Assembly (NCBI GenBank): GCA_027858965.1
Contig: JAQIBS010000025.1
Span: 1-64,000, forward strand
DNA length: 64,000 nucleotides
Source of the DNA: Kiritimatiellia bacterium
Lineage (GTDB): Bacteria > Verrucomicrobiota > Kiritimatiellia > RFP12 > UBA1067
Reading direction: 5' to 3'
Part shown: positions 23,840-35,079 of the stretch, in pieces
Position numbering within the stretch: the stretch's first letter is position 1
Layout of the letters: the number at the start of each line of letters is the position of its first letter
Translations under genes and position numbers: made by a program
The notes under the pieces: generated by a model
Told to the model about the DNA's origin: nothing
Database searches by the model: none
Seen by the model: only the letters and a program-made list of their open reading frames with translations

Positions 23840-24742
23840 TTATTTACCGAAAAGACCCTTCAGTTTATCAGAGGCTCCCTTAACCGCATCCCCGGCGGCA
23901 TCAGCAGCATCACCCGCCACATCAGCGGCACCTTTTGTCAGGTTACCCGCCGTATCGGCCGCCTTTTTGGAAATATCACCGACCGCTTCCGTCCCGCCTT
24001 TGGTGGCATTACCCAGTGCTTCAATCGAACCTTTGCTGATCCCCTTGAAGGCACCCGCAGAACCTGTGGCCAGTTTAGTAATCGCATCCTTGAGTCCGCC
24101 AACGATGCTGGCAATCACCTGATTAATCACTTCAATCATGGTCGCACCACCGCTGGCTTTACCAATATCATGAAGAGTCATAGACGGAAGCGGAATTGTG
24201 ATCGGCTTGCCAAAGGTAAGTGCAGAAGCATAGGAAACTTTACTGCCGTTCAGGATAAATTCATCGATAACGACCTTTTTCTGCGCTTTTGCATCAGGCG
24301 TACCCTTAGGGTCTTTAGCCTTCTCCTCCTTTTCCGCTGTCTGAGCGTTGGCCATTATCGTATCAAAATTAGATTTACCATTTTTGGTTTCAAAAGAAAT
24401 TTCAGGGGTTTCAATCAGAATTTTCTCAATTTCAATCACATCCCCCTTCAAAAGTGACATAATTTTCAGATCAATATCAACTGTCTTCACCGCAAAAGCA
24501 TCTTTAGAAGAGTATGCCTCAGGGTTCCCTACAACAAGATCAGATATGATCAACTGACCGGCAATCGGTTTTAGTTTAACATCGCCTATTGAGACATCAA
24601 CGCCCAACACCTTGGGGCCTCCGACTGCCGCGGCGCTTTTAACCAACGGACCAATGGTCAATGGCAGAGTGAGAATTGCTCCCAAAAGTAAAATTACAAG
24701 AACAACGACAATACCAATAATAATTTTAAAAACTTTCTTCAT
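23840..24742 (-). CDS. AsmA-like membrane-anchored protein with Ala/Gly-rich amphipathic tail
   Basis: The N-terminus MKKVFKIIIGIVVVLVILLLGAI is an uncleaved anchor or signal. Residues 25-190 resemble the AsmA/DUF748 type beta-rich region found in inner-membrane bridge proteins (VLGVDVSIGDVKLKPIAGQLIISDLVVGNP, IEIEKILIETPEISFETKNG). The last 100 residues are low-complexity 11-residue-like amphipathic repeats rich in Ala, Gly and Lys (KAADTAGNLTKGAADVAGDA), as in LEA or apolipoprotein-like helices. It probably sits at the periplasmic face of the inner membrane; its role is unknown. Element copy B follows the stop codon. Confidence 0.7.
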   Translation of the reverse strand: MKKVFKIIIGIVVVLVILLLGAILTLPLTIGPLVKSAAAVGGPKVLGVDVSIGDVKLKPIAGQLIISDLVVGNPEAYSSKDAFAVKTVDIDLKIMSLLKGDVIEIEKILIETPEISFETKNGKSNFDTIMANAQTAEKEEKAKDPKGTPDAKAQKKVVIDEFILNGSKVSYASALTFGKPITIPLPSMTLHDIGKASGGATMIEVINQVIASIVGGLKDAITKLATGSAGAFKGISKGSIEALGNATKGGTEAVGDISKKAADTAGNLTKGAADVAGDAADAAGDAVKGASDKLKGLFGK

Positions 24743-24817
24743 AATATATCTCCTTTATTAGTGTTTCTAATCTATCCGAATATATTGACATTATAACTTA
24801 CACACAAAATCGCGACA

Positions 24818-24849
24818 ACAAAAAAGGACGCTGTTGCCAGCGCCGCAAA
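24818..24849 (-). terminator. Rho-independent terminator of the PIN toxin-antitoxin operon
   Basis: On the minus strand the stem GGCGCTG-GCAA-CAGCGTCC is followed by TTTTTTG, a compact GNRA-capped intrinsic terminator about 25 nt past the toxin stop codon. Confidence 0.75.
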
Positions 24850-24873
24850 TCGTTGCACTTTGCAGCCTAATGG

Positions 24874-25287
24874 TTACGTTTTTTGCAAGTATTCCCCGGC
24901 ACTCAGGATAAGGATCAACTTCCAAACATTCAAATCAAGAAGGTGTGAATCTCCTGTGACAATGAAGTCAGCATGGGCTGTGATTGCGCATTCGATGACA
25001 TGATCATCGTCAGGATCGTCAGGGACAATGCGTATCGGCGTGTCGGATGTCTCCACGATCTGTGCATTTTCAATGACCAGCTCAAGGATGTCGTTTGAGG
25101 AAAGATTACGCCGTTCGAGAATACGGGAGATCTTCGGATAGTTGAGAACCTTCGCCAGCTCCTGCAAGAGATGATAGCTAGTGTAGAGCGTATCACGTCC
25201 TGTTTCAATGCGCTCCAATATGCGGCCAGGAGTTCCGCCCCACAGGAGTGCAGAAATCAACACATTTGTATCGCAGACAATCCTCAT
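24874..25287 (-). CDS. PIN-domain toxin of a type II toxin-antitoxin pair
   Basis: A 137-aa PIN-fold ribonuclease of the COG1569 type. The N-terminal acidic strand MRIVCDTNVLISALLWGG, a central DDDHVIECAITA with acidic residues, and FIVTGDSHLLDL near the C-terminus carry the metal-binding Asp/Glu set. Family members cleave RNA and are blocked by the cognate antitoxin. Its ATG overlaps the antitoxin stop by four bases (ATGA), so the pair is translationally coupled. A strong terminator follows. Confidence 0.85.
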   Translation of the reverse strand: MRIVCDTNVLISALLWGGTPGRILERIETGRDTLYTSYHLLQELAKVLNYPKISRILERRNLSSNDILELVIENAQIVETSDTPIRIVPDDPDDDHVIECAITAHADFIVTGDSHLLDLNVWKLILILSAGEYLQKT

Positions 25288-25568
25288 GCCCCATCCCTGC
25301 GGCGGGAACGTACCTCCTTGAGGATACTGTCCAGATCACCGGACGACAACTCATCACTGCCTGCCGGATTTGCGTCCATACGCTGCCTTAGATCCGAGAA
25401 GGATTTAACTTTTGTCTGCGGCACCACCTCTTCCGGCGCATTAAACGGCACAATCCTGAACGCGGGACGCGAATTGCGCAGGACAATAAACATTTCGCCA
25501 CCTGCGGCGCGATCAGCAATGGCGGCAAGTTCTGTCCGCATGTCTTGCATGGCTATGAGCGTTTCCAT
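25284..25568 (-). CDS. Antitoxin of the PIN toxin pair (Phd/YefM-like)
   Basis: About 94 aa from ATG 25568, which has GGAGT with good spacing; the track start at 25586 has no such site. The N-terminal part METLIAMQDMRTELAAIADRAAGGEMFIVLRNSRPAFRIVPF resembles a Phd/prevent-host-death DNA-binding domain. The C-terminal part (DLRQRMDANPAGSDELSSGDLDSILKEVRSRR) is charged and would wrap the toxin. As in related systems it probably autoregulates the operon; no operator was assigned. The antitoxin-first order with 4-nt overlap is typical. Confidence 0.8.
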   Translation of the reverse strand: METLIAMQDMRTELAAIADRAAGGEMFIVLRNSRPAFRIVPFNAPEEVVPQTKVKSFSDLRQRMDANPAGSDELSSGDLDSILKEVRSRRRDGA

Positions 25569-25696
25569 GTTCACTCCTTTTAACATATGAAATTAGTATA
25601 GTTTTACCGTATGTTTGTGTTTTCTGCAAGCCTATTTTTTGACAGGATTAGAACGAAGGTTAAAGAGTTACGGCATCTCATTCGTTCAACGCTCTA

Positions 25697-25735
25697 GCCA
25701 AAAAAAGGGCGCTGTTTCCAGCTCCCTTTTTTTTA
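25697..25735 (-). terminator. Rho-independent terminator after gnd
   Basis: On the minus strand GGGAGCTG-GAAA-CAGCGCCC is followed by TTTTTTT and preceded by an A-run, so it could also work in the other direction. It lies about 60 nt past the gnd stop codon and shields the toxin-antitoxin operon from read-through. Confidence 0.8.
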
Positions 25736-25793
25736 ATCTCTTTATCGTTCACCTATTCCGCGCAGCGGAATCATCTGATTCGCTGGAAGCGAA

Positions 25794-27374
25794 TTAGACA
25801 ATATAGGTTGAAGCAGCGGTATTGCCTCCGGTCTCAGTCCAGATATGATGATGAAAATCACCACGTTCTTTGTCGACACGCTCAAAGGTATGTGCGCCAA
25901 AGTAATCACGCTGCGCCTGCAGCAAGTTAGCAGGCAGACGTGCACTGCGATATGAATCATAGTAATTCAACGCTGTACTCATTGCCGGAACCGGAATACC
26001 CAGATCCACTGCCGTCTTAATGACCTCACGCCATGCAACCTGCGCACGGGAGATTACACCCTTGAAGTATGGGTCCAACAGCAGGTTGGCCATCTCAGGA
26101 TTCTTGTCAAATGCTTCTTTGATCTTACCAAGGAAACGAGCGCGAATAATACAACCCTGACGCCATACCAATGCGATTTCACCGTAGTTTAAATCCCAGT
26201 TGTACTCACTAGCTGAAGCACGCATCAGCTGATAACCCTGTGCATATGAACAAACTTTAGAGGCGTAGACGGCCTGCTCCAGCTGTTTAATAAAGAGTTT
26301 CTTATCAACTTCAACCGTCTCTTTGGGCCCTTTAAGAACCTTGGATGCCGCAACACGTTCTTCCTTGATAGCAGAGAGGCAACGTGCAAACACAGCTTCG
26401 GCAATCTGCGGAATAGCAACGCCCAGATCAAGGCCGGCCTCGGAGGTCCATTTTCCGGTTCCCTTCTGTCCTGCGGTATCCAGAATCACATCCACCATCG
26501 GTTTACCGGTCTCTTCATCATACTGAGAAAGAATGTCAGCAGAGATATCAATCAGGTAGCTGTCCAGATTACCCTTGTTCCATTTGGCAAAGACCTTCTG
26601 CATCTCTTTTGCGCTCATTCCCAGACCGCGGGACATCAGATCGTAAGCTTCACAAACCAGTTGCATATCACCATACTCAATACCGTTATGCACCATCTTC
26701 ACAAAATGACCAGCGCCATCCTTGCCGATCCATGAGCAACAGGGAGTTCCATCTTCAACTTTGGCAGCAATATCCTGAAAGATCTTTTTAACAAAACGCC
26801 ATGCAGATGGGTCGCCACCAGGCATAATAGCAGGCCCCAGAAGAGCACCCTCTTCGCCACCGGAAACACCTGCACCGATATAACGCAATCCCTTTTCCTT
26901 CAAATACTTTGTTCTGCGCACAGTGTCAGGAAAATGGCTGTTACCGCCATCAATAATAATATCGCCTTTTTCCAATACAGGAATCAGTGATTCAATTGTC
27001 TGATCCACGGCTCCGCCAGCTTTAACCATCAACATCACACGACGTGGTTTTTTAAGACTCGCGGCAAGTTCTTTCAAAGAGTGGCAGCCAATCAGCTTCT
27101 TACCGGCGCCACGGCTTTCAACAAAGGCATCGACCTTAGAAACCGTACGATTGAAACATGCAACTGTGTAGCCCTTGCTCTCCATATTAAGAATCAGATT
27201 CTCGCCCATTACAGCCAGACCGATCAATCCAATGTCAGCTTTTTTAACAGCCTTTGCTTTCTTGACAGCCTTTGCTTTCTTAGTTGGCGCCTTTTTTACA
27301 GCAGCTTTCTTAGCCGGTGCTTTCACCTTCTTGACAACTTTTGTCACCTTTTCACTCTTTACTTTCTTAGCCAT
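25794..27374 (-). CDS. gnd: 6-phosphogluconate dehydrogenase with lysine-rich histone H1-like N-terminal extension
   Basis: It catalyses NADP-dependent oxidative decarboxylation of 6-phosphogluconate to ribulose 5-phosphate. Canonical motifs: [51 protein letters not shown] (catalytic Lys), and [11 protein letters not shown] close to the end. Length of the catalytic part is about 480 aa, as usual. The start at ATG 27374 has GAGG seven bases before it; the track start at 27536 gives an implausible leader. Residues 2-46 are an unusual basic stretch with [14 protein letters not shown] and [15 protein letters not shown], resembling histone H1 or Hc1 tails. It is third in a larA/SDR/gnd group and is followed by a strong terminator. 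Confidence 0.95.
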
Positions 27375-27552
27375 TTTCATTCCTCTATTGCATTCTTTAA
27401 TGTATTTCGTTAAATTTTTTGACGCACGACTCTCGACCTGATGACGCACACTTGCGAGGAAATCTCTTCGCACGGGCAAGCATGCATCAACCAATGTCAG
27501 GCAGGCAAAACCTAAAGCCCAACCACCTAAAGCCAACGTTCATCGAACGTTG

Positions 27553-28410
27553 TTAAACTCCGCTATAGGCAGAGAAACCGCCATCGATCGGAACCACAAC
27601 GCCAGTCACAAATCTAGAGGCATCAGCGGATACAAGCCAAAGCATTGCACCGATCAGATCCTCCGGATTGCCGAACTCACCCATGGGAGTGTTATTTAGA
27701 ATCTTCTCTGAACGCGGAGTCATTGATCCATCTGGATTTATCAGCAACGCCTTGTTCTGAGCGGTCAGGAAAAAGCCGGGAGCAATAGCATTCACGCGAA
27801 TACCAGCCTTAGCCATATGAACCGCCATCCACTGCGTAAAGTTACTCACAGCAGCTTTGGCGGCGCTGTAGGCCGGAATCTTGGTCAACGGACAAAAAGC
27901 ATTCATCGATGAGATATTGATGATAATACCCGATCCACTCTTGGCCATATTCTTAGTAAAGGCCTGTGAAGGAAGCAGAGTTCCCAGGAAATTCAGATTA
28001 AAAACAAACTCAATGCTCTTAGGGTCAAGATCATAGAAAGTCACGAAATCGCGATTTTCGATGAGAAGATCATCAGGATTGAGATACTCCATAGAGGTGG
28101 TTCCCTTAGGATGGTTGCCGCCAGCGCCATTGATCAAAATAGAGACAGGACCCAGCTCAGCCTCAATCTTCTGATTAGCGGCTTCCAAACTCTCTTTTTC
28201 CAATGCATTACAGCCTACGGCCAGAGCCTTACCACCCGCTGCAACAATATCATCAACGACTTTCTGCGCTGCAGCCTCGTTCAAATCCGCTACAGCCACA
28301 GCTGCACCGCATTCAGCCAGAGCTCTTGCCATTGTACCGCAAAGCACTCCACCGCCACCAGTGACAACAGCCACCTTTCCATCTAAATTCACCTTAAAGG
28401 GAACTCCCAT
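27553..28410 (-). CDS. SDR family oxidoreductase, likely D-mannonate/fructuronate-type
   Basis: A classical short-chain dehydrogenase of 285 aa. The NAD(P)-binding motif is VAVVTGGGGVLCGTMA, the adenine-pocket Asp follows in VAVADLNE, ILINGAGGNHPKG carries the NAG motif, the catalytic Ser is in INISSMNAF and the YxxxK pair in YSAAKAAVSNF. The inserted stretch after GNHPKGTT and the length match the subfamily annotated as D-mannonate oxidoreductase (fructuronate reductase activity), though this call is from memory of the family. AAGGAGATGAAAAATG gives a strong start. Neighbours are a LarA-family gene and gnd, which fits hexonate metabolism. Confidence 0.85.
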   Translation of the reverse strand: MGVPFKVNLDGKVAVVTGGGGVLCGTMARALAECGAAVAVADLNEAAAQKVVDDIVAAGGKALAVGCNALEKESLEAANQKIEAELGPVSILINGAGGNHPKGTTSMEYLNPDDLLIENRDFVTFYDLDPKSIEFVFNLNFLGTLLPSQAFTKNMAKSGSGIIINISSMNAFCPLTKIPAYSAAKAAVSNFTQWMAVHMAKAGIRVNAIAPGFFLTAQNKALLINPDGSMTPRSEKILNNTPMGEFGNPEDLIGAMLWLVSADASRFVTGVVVPIDGGFSAYSGV

Positions 28411-28470
28411 TTTTCATCTCCTTAGTTTAATTTTAAAAATTTTCTGCGTTATGGGCCGTATGAGCCATAG

Positions 28471-28508
28471 CAATATCCAACACCCAACACGGAATATCCA
28501 ATATCCAA
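28471..28508. repeat. Left 38-bp terminal inverted repeat of the S23 cassette
   Basis: Quasi-heptameric sequence (CAATATCCAA, then CAACACGGAATATCCAA) that is the inverted counterpart of 28884-28921, with 34 of 38 positions identical by eye. Confidence 0.8.
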
Positions 28509-28519
28509 GTTGAGAGCCG

Positions 28520-28891
28520 CTATCGCTCCTTACTTTGCTTAGCAGTCCCAACACTCGTAAATAGGATTGCAATCAATTCATCAGTTTCTTTCATCAGCGA
28601 ATCTAATTTCGATGACATCTTAACCATCTCCGCCCTTGCAATAATCTTCAGCCAAATCTCTGTTTCCCTAAGTTCCTTAAGCGCAATCTTTAGTTTATGA
28701 ACAAAATCCGCTTTCGATTCTACGCTTTGAGACTCTCCATAATTTGCAGCAGGCGAAGTGCCACTCCGCAAAATTTGTAAGGAAATATGCTTACCGGCCT
28801 TTGTATCAGGAAGCGCCTCCGAAAGGTTTATAATCCTGACAGCATAATCGACTAAGCGATTCTGTAAATCATATTTCTTTTCCTTGGACAT
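28520..28891 (-). CDS. Four-helix-bundle protein (S23/23S rRNA intervening-sequence protein family)
   Basis: A 123-aa PF05635-type protein from ATG 28891; the longer track ORF reads back through larA. Family signature segments are KKYDLQNRLVDYAVRIINLSEALP, QILRSGTSPAANYGESQSVESKADFVHKLKIALKELRETEIWLKII. Family members form pentameric four-helix bundles; the best-known relative is the Avd accessory protein of diversity-generating retroelements, but no reverse transcriptase is near. The start codon itself is inside the right inverted repeat, with no Shine-Dalgarno. The gene separates larA from the SDR gene and appears to be a cassette inserted exactly after the larA stop. Confidence 0.9.
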   Translation of the reverse strand: MSKEKKYDLQNRLVDYAVRIINLSEALPDTKAGKHISLQILRSGTSPAANYGESQSVESKADFVHKLKIALKELRETEIWLKIIARAEMVKMSSKLDSLMKETDELIAILFTSVGTAKQSKER

Positions 28892-28921
28892 TGGATATTC
28901 CGTGTTGATTATTGGATATTG
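28884..28921. repeat. Right 38-bp terminal inverted repeat of the S23 cassette
   Basis: This inverted copy of 28471-28508 starts one nucleotide after the larA stop codon and contains the S23 start codon. It is built of 7-nt-spaced ATCCAA-like words. Confidence 0.8.
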
Positions 28922-28922
28922 A

Positions 28923-30206
28923 TCATTCTCCCGCGAACCGCGATTCCACCGCCCACAAGCCGATGGCCGGGTTACTGATATAAAAAATCTCTTCACCATC
29001 CGGCATTACATTAACGCCGTCTTTTAATACTTCAGGATTGTAGCGCTGCATGGAGGCATCACAATCAGCATATTTAAAACCAGCACTTTCAATTTCTTCA
29101 CGAGAGAGTTTACCGGCAGCATAGGTGATGCCGAAGCGTCCCTCTGAGGAGCCATGAATCAAATGAGCAGCCGCCCCGAGATTATCCCGCAACTCCTGAC
29201 TCTCATCAACAAACTGCATTGTTTTCTCTGTTCCAAAATATCCATACTTGCGAATCAAAGCATCAATCTGCGGGTCTTCCCCAAACTCCTCAACACCTGG
29301 AGCCAAAACAAGAAGTTCGCCATCATCAGCCATTGCCATGCGGGTTCGGTAAATCGCCTTATTGCCCAACCATGTGCTCTTGAATTCAGAGGGGTCCAGA
29401 TAAACAACGCATTTTTTGATCGGTTCTGATAGCATCTCAAAATTAACCTCAAGCGAGAGGGCAGCGGCTTTATTGAAAACCTCAATATCCGCACCTACAT
29501 AAAGTCCACGCACGGCAAGACCACCCGCCTCTTCATCACGTCCAACCACAGTCTGCACATAAACCGTTTCCGGAAGCTGGTCACAAAAGTGGTCGGTACC
29601 ATAGTTATAAAGTCGACGCACGGGAGTATCCGCCCGCCCCATGATACGCTCCATGCCATATACTGCTCCCACAAAATGGCTGCGATGAATGCCAACGGAT
29701 CCGCCAGTGCCCACAAAAAGATTCTTGTTATAGTTGGCCATGCCAATAACTTCATGCGGCACAACCTGTCCGATCGAGAGGATTAAATCAAAGTTCCCCT
29801 CTACCAACAGTTTATTGACCTGCACAGGCCAGTCAAAATCAAGAGCTCCCTCTGTGACTTCGCTCATGTATTCACCGGGAACAGTTCCGAGAGTAACAAC
29901 ATCATTGCGCCAATCATGCACCTTAAAGAGATCCAACGGTATCTCACCAAACATCTCTTTAATCTGCTCTGGCGTCATAGGTGTGTGTGTGCCGAGAGCA
30001 GGCAGTACAGCGGTCAATGCATCACCGTAATACTCCCAGGCAAATTGAGTCAGCAAACCGGCCCGCGAATGAAATCGCGTAAAATCCGGGGGAACAATCA
30101 GAACATTTTTACGTTTACCCAGCTTATCCAAAGCCTCAAACAATCCACGCTTCATTTGCGCAGCATCAAGCTTTGATTCAACAGATCCATCTTCAAAAAG
30201 CAACAT
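28923..30206 (-). CDS. LarA-family nickel-dependent 2-hydroxyacid racemase/epimerase homologue
   Basis: A 427-aa DUF2088/LarA-type protein. Characteristic segments are VLIVPPDFTRFHSRAG, ALGTHTPMTPEQIKEMFG with the metal/cofactor-site His, VPHEVIGMANYNKNLFVGTGG, and KYGYFGTEKTM. LarA uses a nickel pincer nucleotide to racemise lactate; homologues act on other 2-hydroxyacids, including gluconate 2-epimerisation. Next to an apparent mannonate dehydrogenase and gnd, a hexonate substrate is more likely than lactate (inference). No larB/larC/larE cofactor genes are in the window. AAGGGAG precedes the ATG. It is divergent from mscS with 130 nt between. Confidence 0.85.
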   Translation of the reverse strand: MLLFEDGSVESKLDAAQMKRGLFEALDKLGKRKNVLIVPPDFTRFHSRAGLLTQFAWEYYGDALTAVLPALGTHTPMTPEQIKEMFGEIPLDLFKVHDWRNDVVTLGTVPGEYMSEVTEGALDFDWPVQVNKLLVEGNFDLILSIGQVVPHEVIGMANYNKNLFVGTGGSVGIHRSHFVGAVYGMERIMGRADTPVRRLYNYGTDHFCDQLPETVYVQTVVGRDEEAGGLAVRGLYVGADIEVFNKAAALSLEVNFEMLSEPIKKCVVYLDPSEFKSTWLGNKAIYRTRMAMADDGELLVLAPGVEEFGEDPQIDALIRKYGYFGTEKTMQFVDESQELRDNLGAAAHLIHGSSEGRFGITYAAGKLSREEIESAGFKYADCDASMQRYNPEVLKDGVNVMPDGEEIFYISNPAIGLWAVESRFAGE

Positions 30207-30338
30207 AACTCCCTTTCCTCTAAATAAGCCATCTATTTTGACATAATTACACTCCCTGAATCAAGCTTGCAAAAATCCCCTTTGCATAAATGCACGACGA
30301 GAGTATCATAGACGTATTCATTTAAAAGGAAAAGTCCC

Positions 30339-30812
30339 ATGATAGTTAACCAATTTTTTCCCGCCCTGATTATCTTCTCTGCTTTTGTAGCGGGCAGCTT
30401 CTTTTTCAGCCACCTGCTCAGAGAGGTCAGCTCACGTTTCGATGTATCCACCAATGAGGTATTTCGCCTGCTGGCCAACTTCCAGCAAGCCATTATGATT
30501 TTTATCGGATCAGTGCTGGCTCTGGCCAAACTGGGATTTAATGTTTCGGCACTGGTCGCCGGACTGGGCCTGACCGGATTTGCACTGGGATTTGCCCTTA
30601 AGGATGCCATTGCAAACCTTGTGGCAGGCATTATGATTGTCATCTACAAGCCGATAGAAATCGGCCACATTGTAGAGGTATCCGGAAGCCGGGGAGAGGT
30701 CATCAACATCAACCTGCGTTATATCACAATTCAAAAAGAGGATGCGATTGACTTGGTTCCCAACTCCCTTTTCCTAAACAAACAGATCACTGTTTTTAAA
30801 CCGAGCAGCTAG
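30339..30812 (+). CDS. Small MscS-type mechanosensitive channel
   Basis: A 157-aa protein with two to three membrane helices and the MscS core. The pore-lining TM3 segment is ALVAGLGLTGFALGFALKDAIANLVAGIMIVIYKPIEIGHIVEV, rich in Gly/Ala, followed by the beta-domain stretch GEVININLRYITIQKEDAIDLVPNSLFLNKQI. It ends there and lacks the large C-terminal alpha-beta vestibule of E. coli MscS (286 aa), so it is a minimal member. AAAGGA lies upstream of the ATG. It acts in the inner membrane to relieve hypo-osmotic stress. It is the only plus-strand gene in the first 40 kb. Confidence 0.88.
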   Translation: MIVNQFFPALIIFSAFVAGSFFFSHLLREVSSRFDVSTNEVFRLLANFQQAIMIFIGSVLALAKLGFNVSALVAGLGLTGFALGFALKDAIANLVAGIMIVIYKPIEIGHIVEVSGSRGEVININLRYITIQKEDAIDLVPNSLFLNKQITVFKPSS

Positions 30813-31210
30813 CTGGGCGGAAATGCGGAAGTTTCACACATCTAGCTTCGTGCTCTGCGTCTACGCCCTGACAAGCCAGAAACGTAGCTCAGCATAGCCG
30901 CAACCTAATATTTTAAGATTTATTTACCGCAGATTGCCATTCTCTTCGGTCATTCCCGCCCTTTGGACAGCCTTACTCAATTGTGCTTCGTTTATCGCAG
31001 ATTTATCTGCATCGCAAAAGGCCGCTTGTTGTAGCGTTGCTTCTCAGAAGCAAAATCTTCCCTGTAGCGTCAGCTCTAATAGCTGAAATAGGGCTGCGTT
31101 AATTGGCTCTGAGAGCCAACACTACAGTTTCAGGTAAATTCCTTGATCAAACTCACTGATTATTTACCACAAACTTCTTTGACTAACCTTAAAACACGCA
31201 GTGTTTTCTC
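30813..31210. repeat. Gene-free region with dispersed intergenic repeat modules
   Basis: No credible ORF. The stretch 30883-31018 is homologous to 44598-44720: both start with GTAGC-CAGCATAGCCGCAACC and later share GGTCA...CC and GCCTTACT with TGCTTCGTTT. TTGCTTCTCAGAAGCAA near 31045 is a hairpin. An AAAACAC-GCA-GTGTTTT hairpin at 31193-31209 precedes element copy C. Confidence 0.6.
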
Positions 31211-31415
31211 CTAATGCAGTAATGCATATCGCACAACTCAATAAAAGATGTAGCATAATCTCGCATATCACTCAGGATAAGTTTGAGGCCGCAACTTGAG
31301 CTGGTAGCTGGTAGTCTGTAGCTGGCAGCAAATACAGCAGAGCAAACTACAAGCTACTGGCTACTGGCTACTGGCTACTGGCTACAAGCTGGGTTGCGTG
31401 CATAGCCCGCATTAG
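31211..31415. repeat. 95-bp inverted-repeat element, copy C, expanded by a heptamer array
   Basis: The left half is like copy A (CTAATGCAG, ATGCATATCGCACAACTCAA, TCTCGCATATCACTCA). The right end is GCCCGCATTAG and contains the stop codon of the PF10091-type hydrolase gene. Between them, 31299-31390 is an added array of 7-nt words: GGTAGCT/GGTAGTC/TGTAGCT, then CTACTGG repeated four times, in partly inverted arrangement. This makes the copy 205 bp. Confidence 0.75.
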
Positions 31416-32998
31416 TCTTTGACAAACCCGATCTTCTTCAGCATCGGAGCAATCTCTGGATTTTTCATGAAGTTCTTCCAGCAAAGACCGGTACGGTAAT
31501 TTTCAATCATGCAGATAATCGGACCCTGATCAATGGCGATATGGCTCTTTGCTACCCAATCTCTCTGCTGGTTGAATGAATCATAAAAGCCGAATGGCCC
31601 CCATAACCTGTCGCCCATTTCATAGTAAAAGTGCTTCAGTGCGGCCATCGATTCTTTAGGGGTAAAAGGGAAAGAGCCGATTGCTGCAGTTGGTGCTATA
31701 GTTCCATTATCACGCTTTTCGCCTGGAGCAAAGGCGCTGTAGCCATCAGGGCCATCGCAGGCGGTCAACCCCCAGACACGATCACTGTAGCCCTTAAACC
31801 CCTGAGGATTATCGTTGCAGTATGCCTGATGAATCTGCGAGATCGCGCGTGAGTTATTGTAGTAGTTGGTATACTGATCGCGTTTATTCCGCGGATCAAA
31901 ACAGGTGAATGAATATTGCGAGAGAAACAGCGGTCCCCCCATCGGAATGCCGACTTCCTGCTTAATCCCGTAGTACTTCTGTCCATTGAGATAACGATCC
32001 CCTCCGGCCCATCCGGTTTGCCAGGTGGTGGCAGGAATAGGATAAGTTGGAGATGCGACTCCCAGCAGGTAGACAATCATACATTCGTTATAACCGCGCA
32101 CCTTGTGATTCTTCTCCCACCCGAAGTTGGGTGACCAGTGCCAGTACATGACACCACTGTTTTCATCCTTGAGATACCAGTTCCACTCAACCGTATGCCA
32201 AAGCTCGGTGATCAAGCTGCGCAGCTCTGTTTCACTACGGAGATCACCATCAAAATACTGCCGCACTGTAAGCAATCCCTGCATCAGCAGAGCGGTCTCT
32301 ACGATATCACCGCCGTCATCATCCTTGGAAAAGCGGATAACCTTTCCGGTTCTTCCATTAAGCCAGTGCGACCACGCCCCGTGAAAGCGATCTGCCTTGC
32401 CGAGAAACCGGACAATCTTCAGCAGTCGTTCAACCCCCTGCTCCCGGGTGACAAATCCGCGCTCAACTCCTATCATAAGAGCCAGCACACCAAACCCTGT
32501 TCCGCCGCTGGCGCAGGCACCGCGCGAACTATAATAGCGTTCTTTGATCAAGCCGGAGTCTTTATGGGCATAATCCCAGAAGTAACGAAAGGTTGCATGC
32601 TGGATTGAAGTAAGAAGCTGATCCTCATTCATCGAAAAAGGAGATGATTCAACAGGCCTATCATTAACCGCGATCTCCTCAGCACTCTTCTGCAGAGCTT
32701 TAACCTTATAATAAAACTTCCTGCCGTTGGCATTTTTTCCGATCCAATCTGAGTAGACCTCGACAGGGTGCGCTTTTTTATTCAGCTTTAAATACTCTCC
32801 ATCGGAGAAATCGCTGCGATAGATATTATAGCCTTTAGCTCCATCGACTGAGCTCCACGTAATATCTACGCGGCTGTCGGCAGGAGAGTGTGTAATGTTT
32901 CCCGCAGCTAAAGCAAACGGAAGAAAAAGGGACAATAATGCCGTGAAATGACTAAACAACGAGTAGTTCATATAATTACAATCGTTAACTTTTCGCAT
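31412..32998 (-). CDS. Secreted PF10091-type glucoamylase/GH144-like hydrolase with FnIII-like domain
   Basis: Signal peptide (MNYSLFSHFTALLSLFLPFALA region), a fibronectin-III-like domain at about residues 35-115 (SRVDITWSSVDGAKGYNIYRSDFSDG), then an alpha/alpha-barrel hydrolase. The catalytic part shows TFRYFWDYAHKDSGLIKERYYSSRGACASGGTGFG, FHGAWSHWLNGRTGK, DDDGGDIVETALLMQGLL, YWHWSPNFGW and YNECMIVYLLGVASPTYPIP. Such proteins are annotated as glycoamylase (PF10091); characterised GH144 members cleave beta-1,2-glucan. Whether this copy has that specificity is unknown. GGAGG precedes the ATG at 32998. The stop codon is supplied by the terminal repeat of element copy C. Confidence 0.87.
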   Translation of the reverse strand: MRKVNDCNYMNYSLFSHFTALLSLFLPFALAAGNITHSPADSRVDITWSSVDGAKGYNIYRSDFSDGEYLKLNKKAHPVEVYSDWIGKNANGRKFYYKVKALQKSAEEIAVNDRPVESSPFSMNEDQLLTSIQHATFRYFWDYAHKDSGLIKERYYSSRGACASGGTGFGVLALMIGVERGFVTREQGVERLLKIVRFLGKADRFHGAWSHWLNGRTGKVIRFSKDDDGGDIVETALLMQGLLTVRQYFDGDLRSETELRSLITELWHTVEWNWYLKDENSGVMYWHWSPNFGWEKNHKVRGYNECMIVYLLGVASPTYPIPATTWQTGWAGGDRYLNGQKYYGIKQEVGIPMGGPLFLSQYSFTCFDPRNKRDQYTNYYNNSRAISQIHQAYCNDNPQGFKGYSDRVWGLTACDGPDGYSAFAPGEKRDNGTIAPTAAIGSFPFTPKESMAALKHFYYEMGDRLWGPFGFYDSFNQQRDWVAKSHIAIDQGPIICMIENYRTGLCWKNFMKNPEIAPMLKKIGFVKD

Positions 32999-33104
32999 TT
33001 ATGTGAGCCTCCCCCTCGCAAAGACGCAAAAAGCGCAGAGTTTGATTGCTATGTGTCATTGCTACGCAGATTTTCTAACCCGTCTACGCCCGCCAGCAAA
33101 GCGA

Positions 33105-33417
33105 TTACAAGAGCAGAATGATCGTACCTGATGGAGGTAGCTCATTCACCTGGTTGATCAGCAGTGCCCTCTCAGGATCTACTGTGCCGGGCACGAAGGT
33201 GAAAACGCGAACCTGATCGATGTCGCCATCGAAGCGGCTGGCGACCTGTCCCGTGATTCCGAGATGAATATCGGTGCCGGTGACAAATGCGTCCGTCTGA
33301 GTGCCAGCCTGGGGTTCGCCGTTGAGGTAGAATGTGCTTGTGCCACTCTCCCGGATGACTGCGATATGGGCCCACTCTCCCGATATAATAGGCTGTCCGC
33401 TACCATTTATGCCACCA
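33105..33417 (-). pseudogene. Remnant of a secreted LamG-domain protein (C-terminal fragment)
   Basis: Reading the minus strand in one frame from about 33417 gives a clear LamG C-terminal half: SGEWAHIAVIRESGTSTFYLNG, then FVTGTDIHLGITGQVASRFDGDIDQVRVFTF, ending in SGTIILLL and a TAA at 33107-33105. The frame has an in-frame TAG just upstream and no start codon or signal peptide, so the 5' portion is lost. The two ORFs listed here on the track are out-of-frame shadows of this remnant. The tail resembles that of the large passenger protein (GMLILLR). Confidence 0.75.
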
Positions 33418-33510
33418 CGCTACTGCCGGAAAAACGTATTATTATACCCCCCCCCTTTTGACCGTAATACAAGATAAAACGCAAAATCATAATATTGATT
33501 ATAATACAAC

Positions 33511-35079
33511 TCAGTCCTGAGTTGCCATGCTTCCCCACCAGTTTTTATTCGGCTGCCAACCCTCATTCAATATTACAGCATGGCTCTTCTCAAGACCCGC
33601 CTTGCGTTTGATTGACTGCTGTTTCTTCTGCTCAACCCATGCCGGATCATAACCATCGAAAGGCAGAGGGCGCTTTGCCCCGCAGGATTCCAAAAAAGCA
33701 TCCAGCTCTTTCCACAACGCATCCGTGCGCTCAGGTTCAGACCCAGCTAAGTTTTTCTGCTCACCAATATCCTTTCCCGGACGATAGAGTTCATTACGGC
33801 CATCTTCATAATAGTGAATCAGCTTATAATCACCCTTGATAATAATGGAAGAGGGCTCTCCTCCCTGGTTGCCGTAGTGCGGATAATGCCAGAAGACAGC
33901 GCGCTCAGCAATCTTATCCCCCTGCAGCAGAGGTTTAAGGCTCACACCATCCACATGCTGCTTCGGCATCAGGTCAAGTCCGGCCAGATCCAGCATTGTG
34001 GGAAAGAAATCAACGCCAGTTACAATTGATCCGCAAAGCGTACCCGCTTTAGTAACACCGGGAGCCTTGATATAGAAGGGAACACGAATGCCCCCCTCCC
34101 ACTGACGTCCCTTGCCACCACGGTAGGGGAGCATACTGGTAGAGAAACTATCACCAGAGCTGACACCCCCGTTGTCACCGGTAAAGAGCACAATAGTATT
34201 TTCATCGAGCCCCTGTTCTTTCAAACACTCCATCACCCGACCTACAGCACTGTCCATATTCTCAATCAGAGCAGCGTAAACCGGATTATCCTGCACCTGA
34301 CGAACAGGGAGAGTACGGTCTATCTTGAAACGATCACCCCGATGCGGATTCTTTGCGGCGATATCTCGATACTTCTTCCAATGCTCGTGTGAGCATTGAA
34401 TCGGACCATGTACCGCATAAAAGGAGAGATACGCCAGGAAGGGTTTATTCCTGTCGCGGTTCTTAATGAAGTTAATTGTCTCATTGGCTAGCCGCTGTGT
34501 CAGCGGTTCTCCATCCTGACCGGATTCCAGGTTGGGATTCTTCCAGGGAGCAAAATACCCTCCGATAGGCGAGCCGACATGCCAGCCGCCTTTATTAATG
34601 TCAAAACCATGATCAGTCGGCCAGGAGCCCTCGCCACCGAGATGCCACTTACCCGTAAAGAATGTTGCATAACCGCCAGCCTTGAGAGCTTCGGCAAGCG
34701 TAACATCCTCCTTGGGAAGATTATGCAGATACTCAGTGGGCATAACGCAGCCCTTTTTTGCCTTTGCCATCTTCGCACCGACTGACGCACCGATCCAGTC
34801 GGTGATTCCATGACGCGCTGGATACTTACCGGTCATTATGCTGGCACGTGAGGGCGAGCAGACCCGACAGGTTGCATACCCACGGGTAAAGCGCATCCCG
34901 GAGTTGGCAAGTTTATCAATATTCGGAGTCTGATAGAACTCACTTCCCTCAACTCCCACATCCATAATGCCGTAATCATCAACCAGCACAAAAAGAAAGT
35001 TCGGTTTCTTAGCTGCAAAGAGAGAGAGCTGCACCCCCGCAACCATCACAATCATCGTTATCTGGAAAAACTTTTTCAT
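33511..35079 (-). CDS. Secreted type I sulfatase (arylsulfatase A-like)
   Basis: A 522-aa formylglycine-dependent sulfatase with signal peptide (MKKFFQITMIVMVAGVQLSLFAA). Metal-binding Asp pair in FVLVDDYGIMD, the maturation motif CSPSRASIMTGKYPARHG at residue 74 (Cys converted to formylglycine), then FTGKWHLGG, and GDNGGVSSGDSF with the second Asp/Asn pair. It removes sulfate esters from a glycan in the periplasm or outside. No sulfatase-maturating enzyme gene lies in the window. AAAGGA precedes the ATG. It is separated from the upstream PL11 gene only by element copy D, which suggests co-transcription and action on the same sulfated pectin-like substrate. Confidence 0.93.
   Translation of the reverse strand: MKKFFQITMIVMVAGVQLSLFAAKKPNFLFVLVDDYGIMDVGVEGSEFYQTPNIDKLANSGMRFTRGYATCRVCSPSRASIMTGKYPARHGITDWIGASVGAKMAKAKKGCVMPTEYLHNLPKEDVTLAEALKAGGYATFFTGKWHLGGEGSWPTDHGFDINKGGWHVGSPIGGYFAPWKNPNLESGQDGEPLTQRLANETINFIKNRDRNKPFLAYLSFYAVHGPIQCSHEHWKKYRDIAAKNPHRGDRFKIDRTLPVRQVQDNPVYAALIENMDSAVGRVMECLKEQGLDENTIVLFTGDNGGVSSGDSFSTSMLPYRGGKGRQWEGGIRVPFYIKAPGVTKAGTLCGSIVTGVDFFPTMLDLAGLDLMPKQHVDGVSLKPLLQGDKIAERAVFWHYPHYGNQGGEPSSIIIKGDYKLIHYYEDGRNELYRPGKDIGEQKNLAGSEPERTDALWKELDAFLESCGAKRPLPFDGYDPAWVEQKKQQSIKRKAGLEKSHAVILNEGWQPNKNWWGSMATQD

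Follow-up and report, generated by a model that had tools for sequence, protein, structure and literature searches.

A probable mobile cassette: an S23 gene between inverted heptamer arrays at an operon junction of a Kiritimatiellia bacterium

The window analysed here is a stretch of 64,000 nucleotides from a Kiritimatiellia bacterium (assembly GCA_027858965.1, contig JAQIBS010000025.1, positions 1 to 64,000). A 451-bp cassette at 28471-28921 consists of a single intact S23 gene between two inverted arms and separates two genes of an operon (Table 1), in which a 6-phosphogluconate-dehydrogenase-like gene follows the SDR gene (this name comes from an earlier note on the DNA and from the translation, without a family search). 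That note, which was made from the letters alone, had called the 5′ host gene larA and the 3′ host gene an SDR. Profile searches narrowed the first to a LarA-family putative hexonate epimerase and the second to a D-mannonate-oxidoreductase-like SDR, and all genes of the operon are intact, as had been claimed.

Table 1. Features at the cassette and its host genes
Feature	Position	Strand	Description	Basis
LarA-family nickel-pincer putative hexonate epimerase	28923..30206	-	5′ host gene, unbroken	NF052594 1e-196
Right arm	28883..28921	-	5′ of S23 in gene orientation; CAATATCCAATAATCAACACGGAATATCCAATGTCCAAG; holds S23 start codon	repeat search
S23 / 23S-rRNA-IVP four-helix-bundle protein	28520..28891	-	123 aa, intact	PF05635, TIGR02436
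Left arm	28471..28509	-	3′ of S23; inverted copy, 35/39 identical	repeat search
Spacer between cassette and SDR start	28411..28470	-		comparison with G001/L165
SDR, D-mannonate-oxidoreductase-like	27553..28410	-	3′ host gene, unbroken	NF006132 5.7e-127

The arms measure 39 nt each, are 35/39 (90%) complementary and lie 373 nt apart; near-identical inverted arms had been noted before at 38 nt and 34/38, of which the near identity stands and the size does not. Their ungapped inverted-match score was 29, compared with a maximum of 14.5 in 2000 shuffles of the same flanks. The other features described in the earlier note were found again: the length of 451 bp, the 7-nt-spaced words in the arms (GGATATT and GGATATTGGATATT, then a 21-nt offset), the single base (28922) between the larA-like TGA at 28925-28923 and the arm, and the S23 ATG at 28891-28889 within the right arm. 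The S23 stop lies 10 nt inside of the left arm, and the left-arm sequence recurs at many S23-less sites of the same genome. With its start codon in an arm (28889-28891), S23 would have its start buried in the hairpin of a full-length transcript, and it may be translatable only until transcription reaches the second arm.

The S23 protein matched PF05635 (1e-16, 61.5 bits, curated cut-off 33.8) and TIGR02436 (1.4e-25, 89.6 bits, curated cut-off 24). An AlphaFold2 model with four helices (pLDDT 93) had its best structural matches in 2rld and 2gsc (TM 0.76-0.81 by query length), followed by Avd of diversity-generating retroelements (4dwl, TM 0.68-0.75) at a sequence identity of 14%. No catalytic domain was recognised in S23, the only ORF of size in the cassette, which encodes no transposase. 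Terminal inverted repeats as in an IS or DNA transposon are present and an own transposase is absent. The arrangement also shares with a 23S rRNA intervening sequence (IVS) an S23 ORF enclosed by inverted repeats able to form an RNA stem. No rRNA match was found in 24000-34000, and the cassette sits between two protein genes and not in 23S rRNA. The four-helix-bundle fold shared with Avd raises the possibility that S23 acts with a reverse transcriptase (RT) in trans. The resemblance of PF05635 to Avd described in a paper on diversity-generating retroelements (PMC10053308) and the orientation of cassettes along transcripts would fit such retro-mobility, but unlike Avd, S23 has no RT/TR/VR unit next to it. 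Neither the cassette nor the adjacent DNA contains an RT (the two RT matches of the genome are on other contigs), and none was found in several S23-carrying drafts, for example G014 (9 S23 genes), G018 (11), G022 (18), G036 (6) and G032 (4); we regard this route as improbable.

Comparison of LarA-family loci from the same bacterial family gave seven larA-SDR neighbourhoods, among which the window genome alone has S23 at the junction. In G001, G066, G014, G005 and G027, only a short spacer separates the LarA stop from the SDR gene, and S23 is absent; G001 belongs to the same genus as the window genome, and its LarA and SDR are 88% identical. The remaining relative, G006 (locus L163), carries an S23-less inverted pair of TGGAANNN octamers (identified by inspection) of about 80 bp directly after the LarA stop, which is an independent insertion of a different element at the window's junction. 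The search for an empty site in relatives, suggested in the earlier note, thus found S23 missing in six, one of them congeneric. The last ~18 nt of the spacer listed in Table 1 resemble the intergenic region with the RBS in G001 (locus L165), and the first ~42 nt, from the left arm to the SDR RBS, are absent from that genome. These ~42 nt may, to judge from this alignment, belong to the insertion.

Reciprocal evidence came from two Nostoc plasmids, NZ_CP040276 (L261) and NZ_CP046706 (L262), that are nearly identical around the insertion sites. In the first, one gene junction holds an S23 cassette whose words are GGAGTCA; in the second, the next junction, ~300 bp off, holds a different S23 cassette built of GGGAAAA words. 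Each plasmid is empty at the other's site, nearly base for base. At the first site a mere few bases separate the genes, and the cassette went in at the stop codon, which reads TAG when the site is empty and TAA when it is occupied. At the second, stop and start overlap in the empty site (TAATG), and the occupied site retains GTAATG to the left of the cassette and an ATG to its right. No target duplication was seen at the first Nostoc site, the second has possibly ATG, and none was clear at larA-SDR; no consistent target-site duplication was found, and the exact ends are uncertain.

The same class of cassette occurs at other sites. The closest relatives of the window S23 are L137 (G014), L126 (G017) and L131 (G005), with 71%, 68% and 62% amino acid identity, and their arms have the window word class (AATATCCAA...), with 78-100% identity over the aligned part. 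As read from translations, L137 follows a class II aldolase gene, L126 folD and L131 a kamA-like (lysine-2,3-aminomutase-like) gene. The outer flanks of these three and the window cassette are unrelated to one another, and in L137 and L126 the arm extends over the final codons and the stop of the 5′ gene. G014 and G005 thus hold a window-class cassette elsewhere and have an empty larA-SDR junction. Adjoining the window-class cassette of L126 (G017:C17:22550-25000) is a long tandem tract of AATATCC-type units at ~600-1050. Taken together, these genome comparisons show that arms and S23 travel as one unit.

The generality of the arms was determined by scoring the inverted match between the 200-nt flanks of each S23 gene, with genes scoring at least 14 counted as armed. 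In the same bacterial family, 75 of 89 S23 genes (84%) reached this score (median 22.5). Exchanging the flanks among loci lowered the share to 2.5% (median 7.5), and none of 174 shifted positions within the same loci reached it. A second set of 77 genes was taken from a GTDB-wide scan that kept the best 80 matches to the protein, in phyla from Acidobacteria to the Candidate Phyla Radiation; because these were the best protein matches, the set was not selected on flanks. Arms were present at 57 of these 77 genes (74%) from about 20 other phyla, with controls of 1.6% (swapped) and 0 of 143 (shifted), so that no shifted position scored in either set (0/317 pooled). At least two loci apparently stand in both sets (L096/L173 and L070/L175), and 16-26% of S23 genes lack clear arms by this score. 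The flanks of LarA genes, used as a gene control, never scored above 11. Lag 7 (and 14) was the dominant periodicity on both sides, with ~19/28 matches compared to 12 in controls. The word period agreed between the two sides at 7/7 in 65 loci, 8/8 in 13 and 9/9 in 3, and was discordant in 4. The arms have a median length of 32 nt, or ~4-5 words. Ten of 11 plasmid-borne S23 genes (ten cyanobacterial, one from Riemerella) have arms; no S23 match was found in 50,697 phage records. That an S23 gene might merely lie near unrelated repeats, by coincidence or through misassembly, has only the draft nature of the genome in its favour. The shuffled, swapped and shifted controls, the 82-kb length of the contig and the same pattern in complete plasmids speak against it; the flank controls and the Nostoc sites refute this explanation, to which we give practically no weight.

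Several individual loci in these sets are unusual. S23 cassettes lie inside CRISPR operons on cyanobacterial plasmids (L255, L257, L264): two part cas6 from cas4 in type I-D loci, and the third separates cas10/cmr2 from a cmr3-type gene in a III-B locus. In the window genome, L007 and L010 (C181, C205) are decaying S23 genes, one cut short by a stop and one split by frame, that still lie beside word arrays. The arms of L001 (C91) in that genome are GGTTTGA words spaced by short variable palindromes rather than plain tandem repeats. L009, L011 and L012, also from the window genome, encode longer S23-like proteins with a weak PF05635 match and no heptamer arrays seen alongside; their flank scores were 14.5 (borderline) for L009 and 8.0 for L011, and L012 was judged by eye only.

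For analysis of the words we used the 132 armed loci among 165 non-redundant S23 loci, which fell into 71 word clusters. None of 74 same-genome S23 pairs with less than 40% identity had similar words. A word determined by the host through genome-wide bias was rejected on this ground, since different S23 genes of one genome have unrelated words. Word similarity climbed with protein identity, from 13% of pairs at 60-70% to 42% at 70-85% and 71% above 85%, and the two similarities were correlated (Mantel r 0.163, 0/2000 permutations). Arms are better conserved than the gene in some S23 pairs, such as L230/L189, in which the S23 DNA is 62% identical, the arms are 33/33 identical and the outer flanks are unrelated. 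Values of dN/dS were mostly 0.05-0.14 among close S23 pairs, indicating that the protein is under purifying selection. Across these loci, then, the word goes with the S23 protein lineage rather than with the host. Recognition by S23 of its own ends is inferred, without binding data; it fits the coupling of protein and word, part of which joint descent would explain. This coupling is established by the data, and mobilisation by the bundle protein itself, which the earlier note had considered, is not.

In 98 loci S23 pointed the same way as both of its neighbours and in 15 it ran against both, with neighbours taken from simple ORF calling, as they were for stop distances. Where the 5′ gene was co-directional (n=95), the outer arm edge lay a median of 3 nt from its stop codon. 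The heptamer-type inverted repeats and stop-codon placement that the earlier note had proposed to look for at other S23 genes thus occur bacteria-wide. On the coding strand, G makes up 35% and C only 12% of the arm 5′ of S23 (G>C in 113/132), with the window cassette, L137, L126 and L131 forming a minority of opposite G/C polarity. Stop triplets were modestly enriched on the arm coding strand (369 vs 279 in shuffles and 214 on the complement). Supply of stop codons by the arms was nevertheless rejected as a general rule, because 38 of 132 arms contain no stop triplet at all.

Words also occur away from S23. The doubled window word had 92 genome matches with at most 1 mismatch, compared to 1 for the reversed control; a second S23 word (from L003/L004) had 157 vs 0, and a third, GTTACAG, had 32 matches at several sites in G022. 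Among the fetched loci were 14 miniature two-armed elements of 126-294 bp without S23, all in cassette orientation and none reversed. They are mostly intergenic by crude ORF calls, and several share S23 3′-end sequence (GAGAGCCGCT..CGCTCC). Being short, non-coding S23-less copies that share the ends of a larger element, they meet the criterion for MITEs.

A DNA-binding regulator whose operators are the arms and scattered words could account for the tie between word and S23 protein and for the many S23-less word sites. Its operators would, however, stand at gene 3′ ends right after stop codons instead of at promoters and would enclose the S23 gene itself as inverted pairs, and the empty sites, differing locations and miniature elements are marks of insertion; we consider this explanation very improbable. 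A REP/RAYT-like or other single-strand (Y1) transposase might instead move the hairpin-capable ends in trans. Y1_Tnp is present in 36 of 41 family genomes, the ends are inverted repeats and several miniature elements contain hairpins. Against this stand two drafts with S23 cassettes and no Y1_Tnp match, G032 (~90% complete) and G019 (84%). REP ends also differ in kind: they are not built of private heptamer arrays coupled to a second protein. This proposal seems about as doubtful to us as the RT-based one. RT and Y1 are each missing from some S23-carrying drafts (neither was matched in G032), which suggests that neither is clearly required; because the genomes are drafts, such absences are weak evidence.

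A different possibility is that the cassette is an RNA-level element, an intervening sequence kept for hairpin formation and RNase III processing of the operon mRNA, with the arms conserved as an RNA stem. The predicted fold of the cassette transcript is much more stable than that of shuffles (z = -6.65, -147 kcal/mol), the cassettes have a strong co-directional bias, and in the Coxiella S23p IVS a 28-bp stem, with GACAGAT heptamers before S23p, is cut by RNase III (PMC4990558). By inspection, three of the four mismatches of the window arms are G-U compatible. Over 132 loci, however, G-U-compatible arm mismatches (154) were not in excess of mirror-image transitions (176), so that stem-level selection is not detectable, and we rejected RNA-stem conservation as the driver of the arms. 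Moreover, a hairpin has no need of 7-nt words tied to a protein lineage. As an account of the cassette the RNA-level explanation is unlikely, if less easily dismissed than the others. RNase III processing as in the Coxiella IVS is itself likely in view of the strong predicted hairpin, an inference made without RNA data.

The explanation that we favour, and think probable, is that the 451 bp arrived at the 3′ end of the larA-like gene as a mobile cassette and belong to a bacteria-wide class for which end binding by S23 is the proposed mechanism. The earlier note had suggested that S23 genes bounded by terminal inverted repeats travel as a minimal mobile element, and the empty larA-SDR and Nostoc sites and the bacteria-wide flank repeats support this suggestion. 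It would have been refuted had all relatives kept S23 at the site with unrelated flanks or had S23 flanks elsewhere lacked inverted repeats, and neither was the case. Each member of the class would be a single S23 gene bracketed by inverted arrays of a 7- or 8-nt word; the insertions are co-directional, lie mostly a few nt from the 5′ stop codon and leave both genes intact. We infer that an S23 oligomer may bind its own word array and pair both ends, and that the paired ends would then be mobilised by an enzyme supplied by the cell; no such enzyme has been identified. Cassette expression would ride on the host operon, and once transcribed the arms would pair into a long RNA hairpin like that of 23S rRNA intervening sequences. 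Since 2gsc is reported as a homopentamer (PMC4990558) and arms have ~4-5 words, one may speculate that each S23 protomer binds one word. Movement is not frequent everywhere, as some close S23 pairs share an insertion site through vertical inheritance.

The closest known kind of element is the S23-encoding 23S rRNA IVS of Leptospira and Coxiella, and the best reading of the cassette is as its intergenic relative. Both have an S23-family ORF within inverted repeats and hypothesised mobility. In Coxiella, tandem heptamers precede the S23p start, a terminal stem of 28 bp closes the IVS, and translation of the S23 within the rRNA is reported to be improbable; the mobility of S23-encoding rRNA IVS has been proposed by others (PMC4990558). 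Unlike the rRNA IVS, S23 cassettes lie outside rRNA at operon gene junctions and have lineage-specific word arrays at both ends, dispersed S23-less copies and purifying selection. The S23-less miniatures resemble MITEs in sharing the ends of a larger element, but the parent has no transposase and the ends are word arrays. The GGGAATC heptamers of Xanthomonas often form close inverted pairs between co-directional genes, at most 50 bp after the stop and on the sense strand (PMC4692102). This geometry is that of S23 cassettes, Nostoc GGGGA[C/T]T is also a heptamer array, and Xanthomonas campestris has the S23 protein XCC0516 (2gsc). The heptamer paper described no connection of its repeats with S23 or, in general, with mobile elements (PMC4692102), and neither GGGAATC nor GGGGA[C/T]T was enriched in the S23 arms analysed. 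TAACTGA repeats in Beggiatoaceae, Cyanobacteria and Bacteroidetes are intergenic heptamers whose patchy spread was read as possible transfer (PMC4679880). They are mostly direct, whereas S23 arms are inverted, and the text does not mention S23 (PMC4679880); the doubled word matched 2 of 132 S23 arms, within the range of shuffled words. Identity of S23 arms with published orphan heptamers by direct match was not significant. Our literature search, which left subscription papers largely outside, found no paper joining S23 genes to heptamer arrays in general.

S23/IVP is a very common orphan family with two crystal structures of unassigned function, and it gains a context and a testable role from these observations. 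We see an even chance that S23 proteins are the sequence-specific end-binding factors of bacteria-wide transposase-less elements, with ends of private 7/8-nt word arrays, in which new words arise with new S23 lineages, and that S23-less descendants of these elements make up at least some of the heptameric repeats, long without explanation, and of the rRNA IVS of bacteria. The cassettes connect S23 with the surplus of heptamer repeats that bacterial genomes show without known reason, and their widespread operon-junction form takes rRNA intervening sequences out of isolation. If true, a transposase-less mobile element whose word ends are specific to a protein lineage would be an unusual design, and the private mirror-image tags of S23 genes would point to a very small type of mobile element that has escaped notice.
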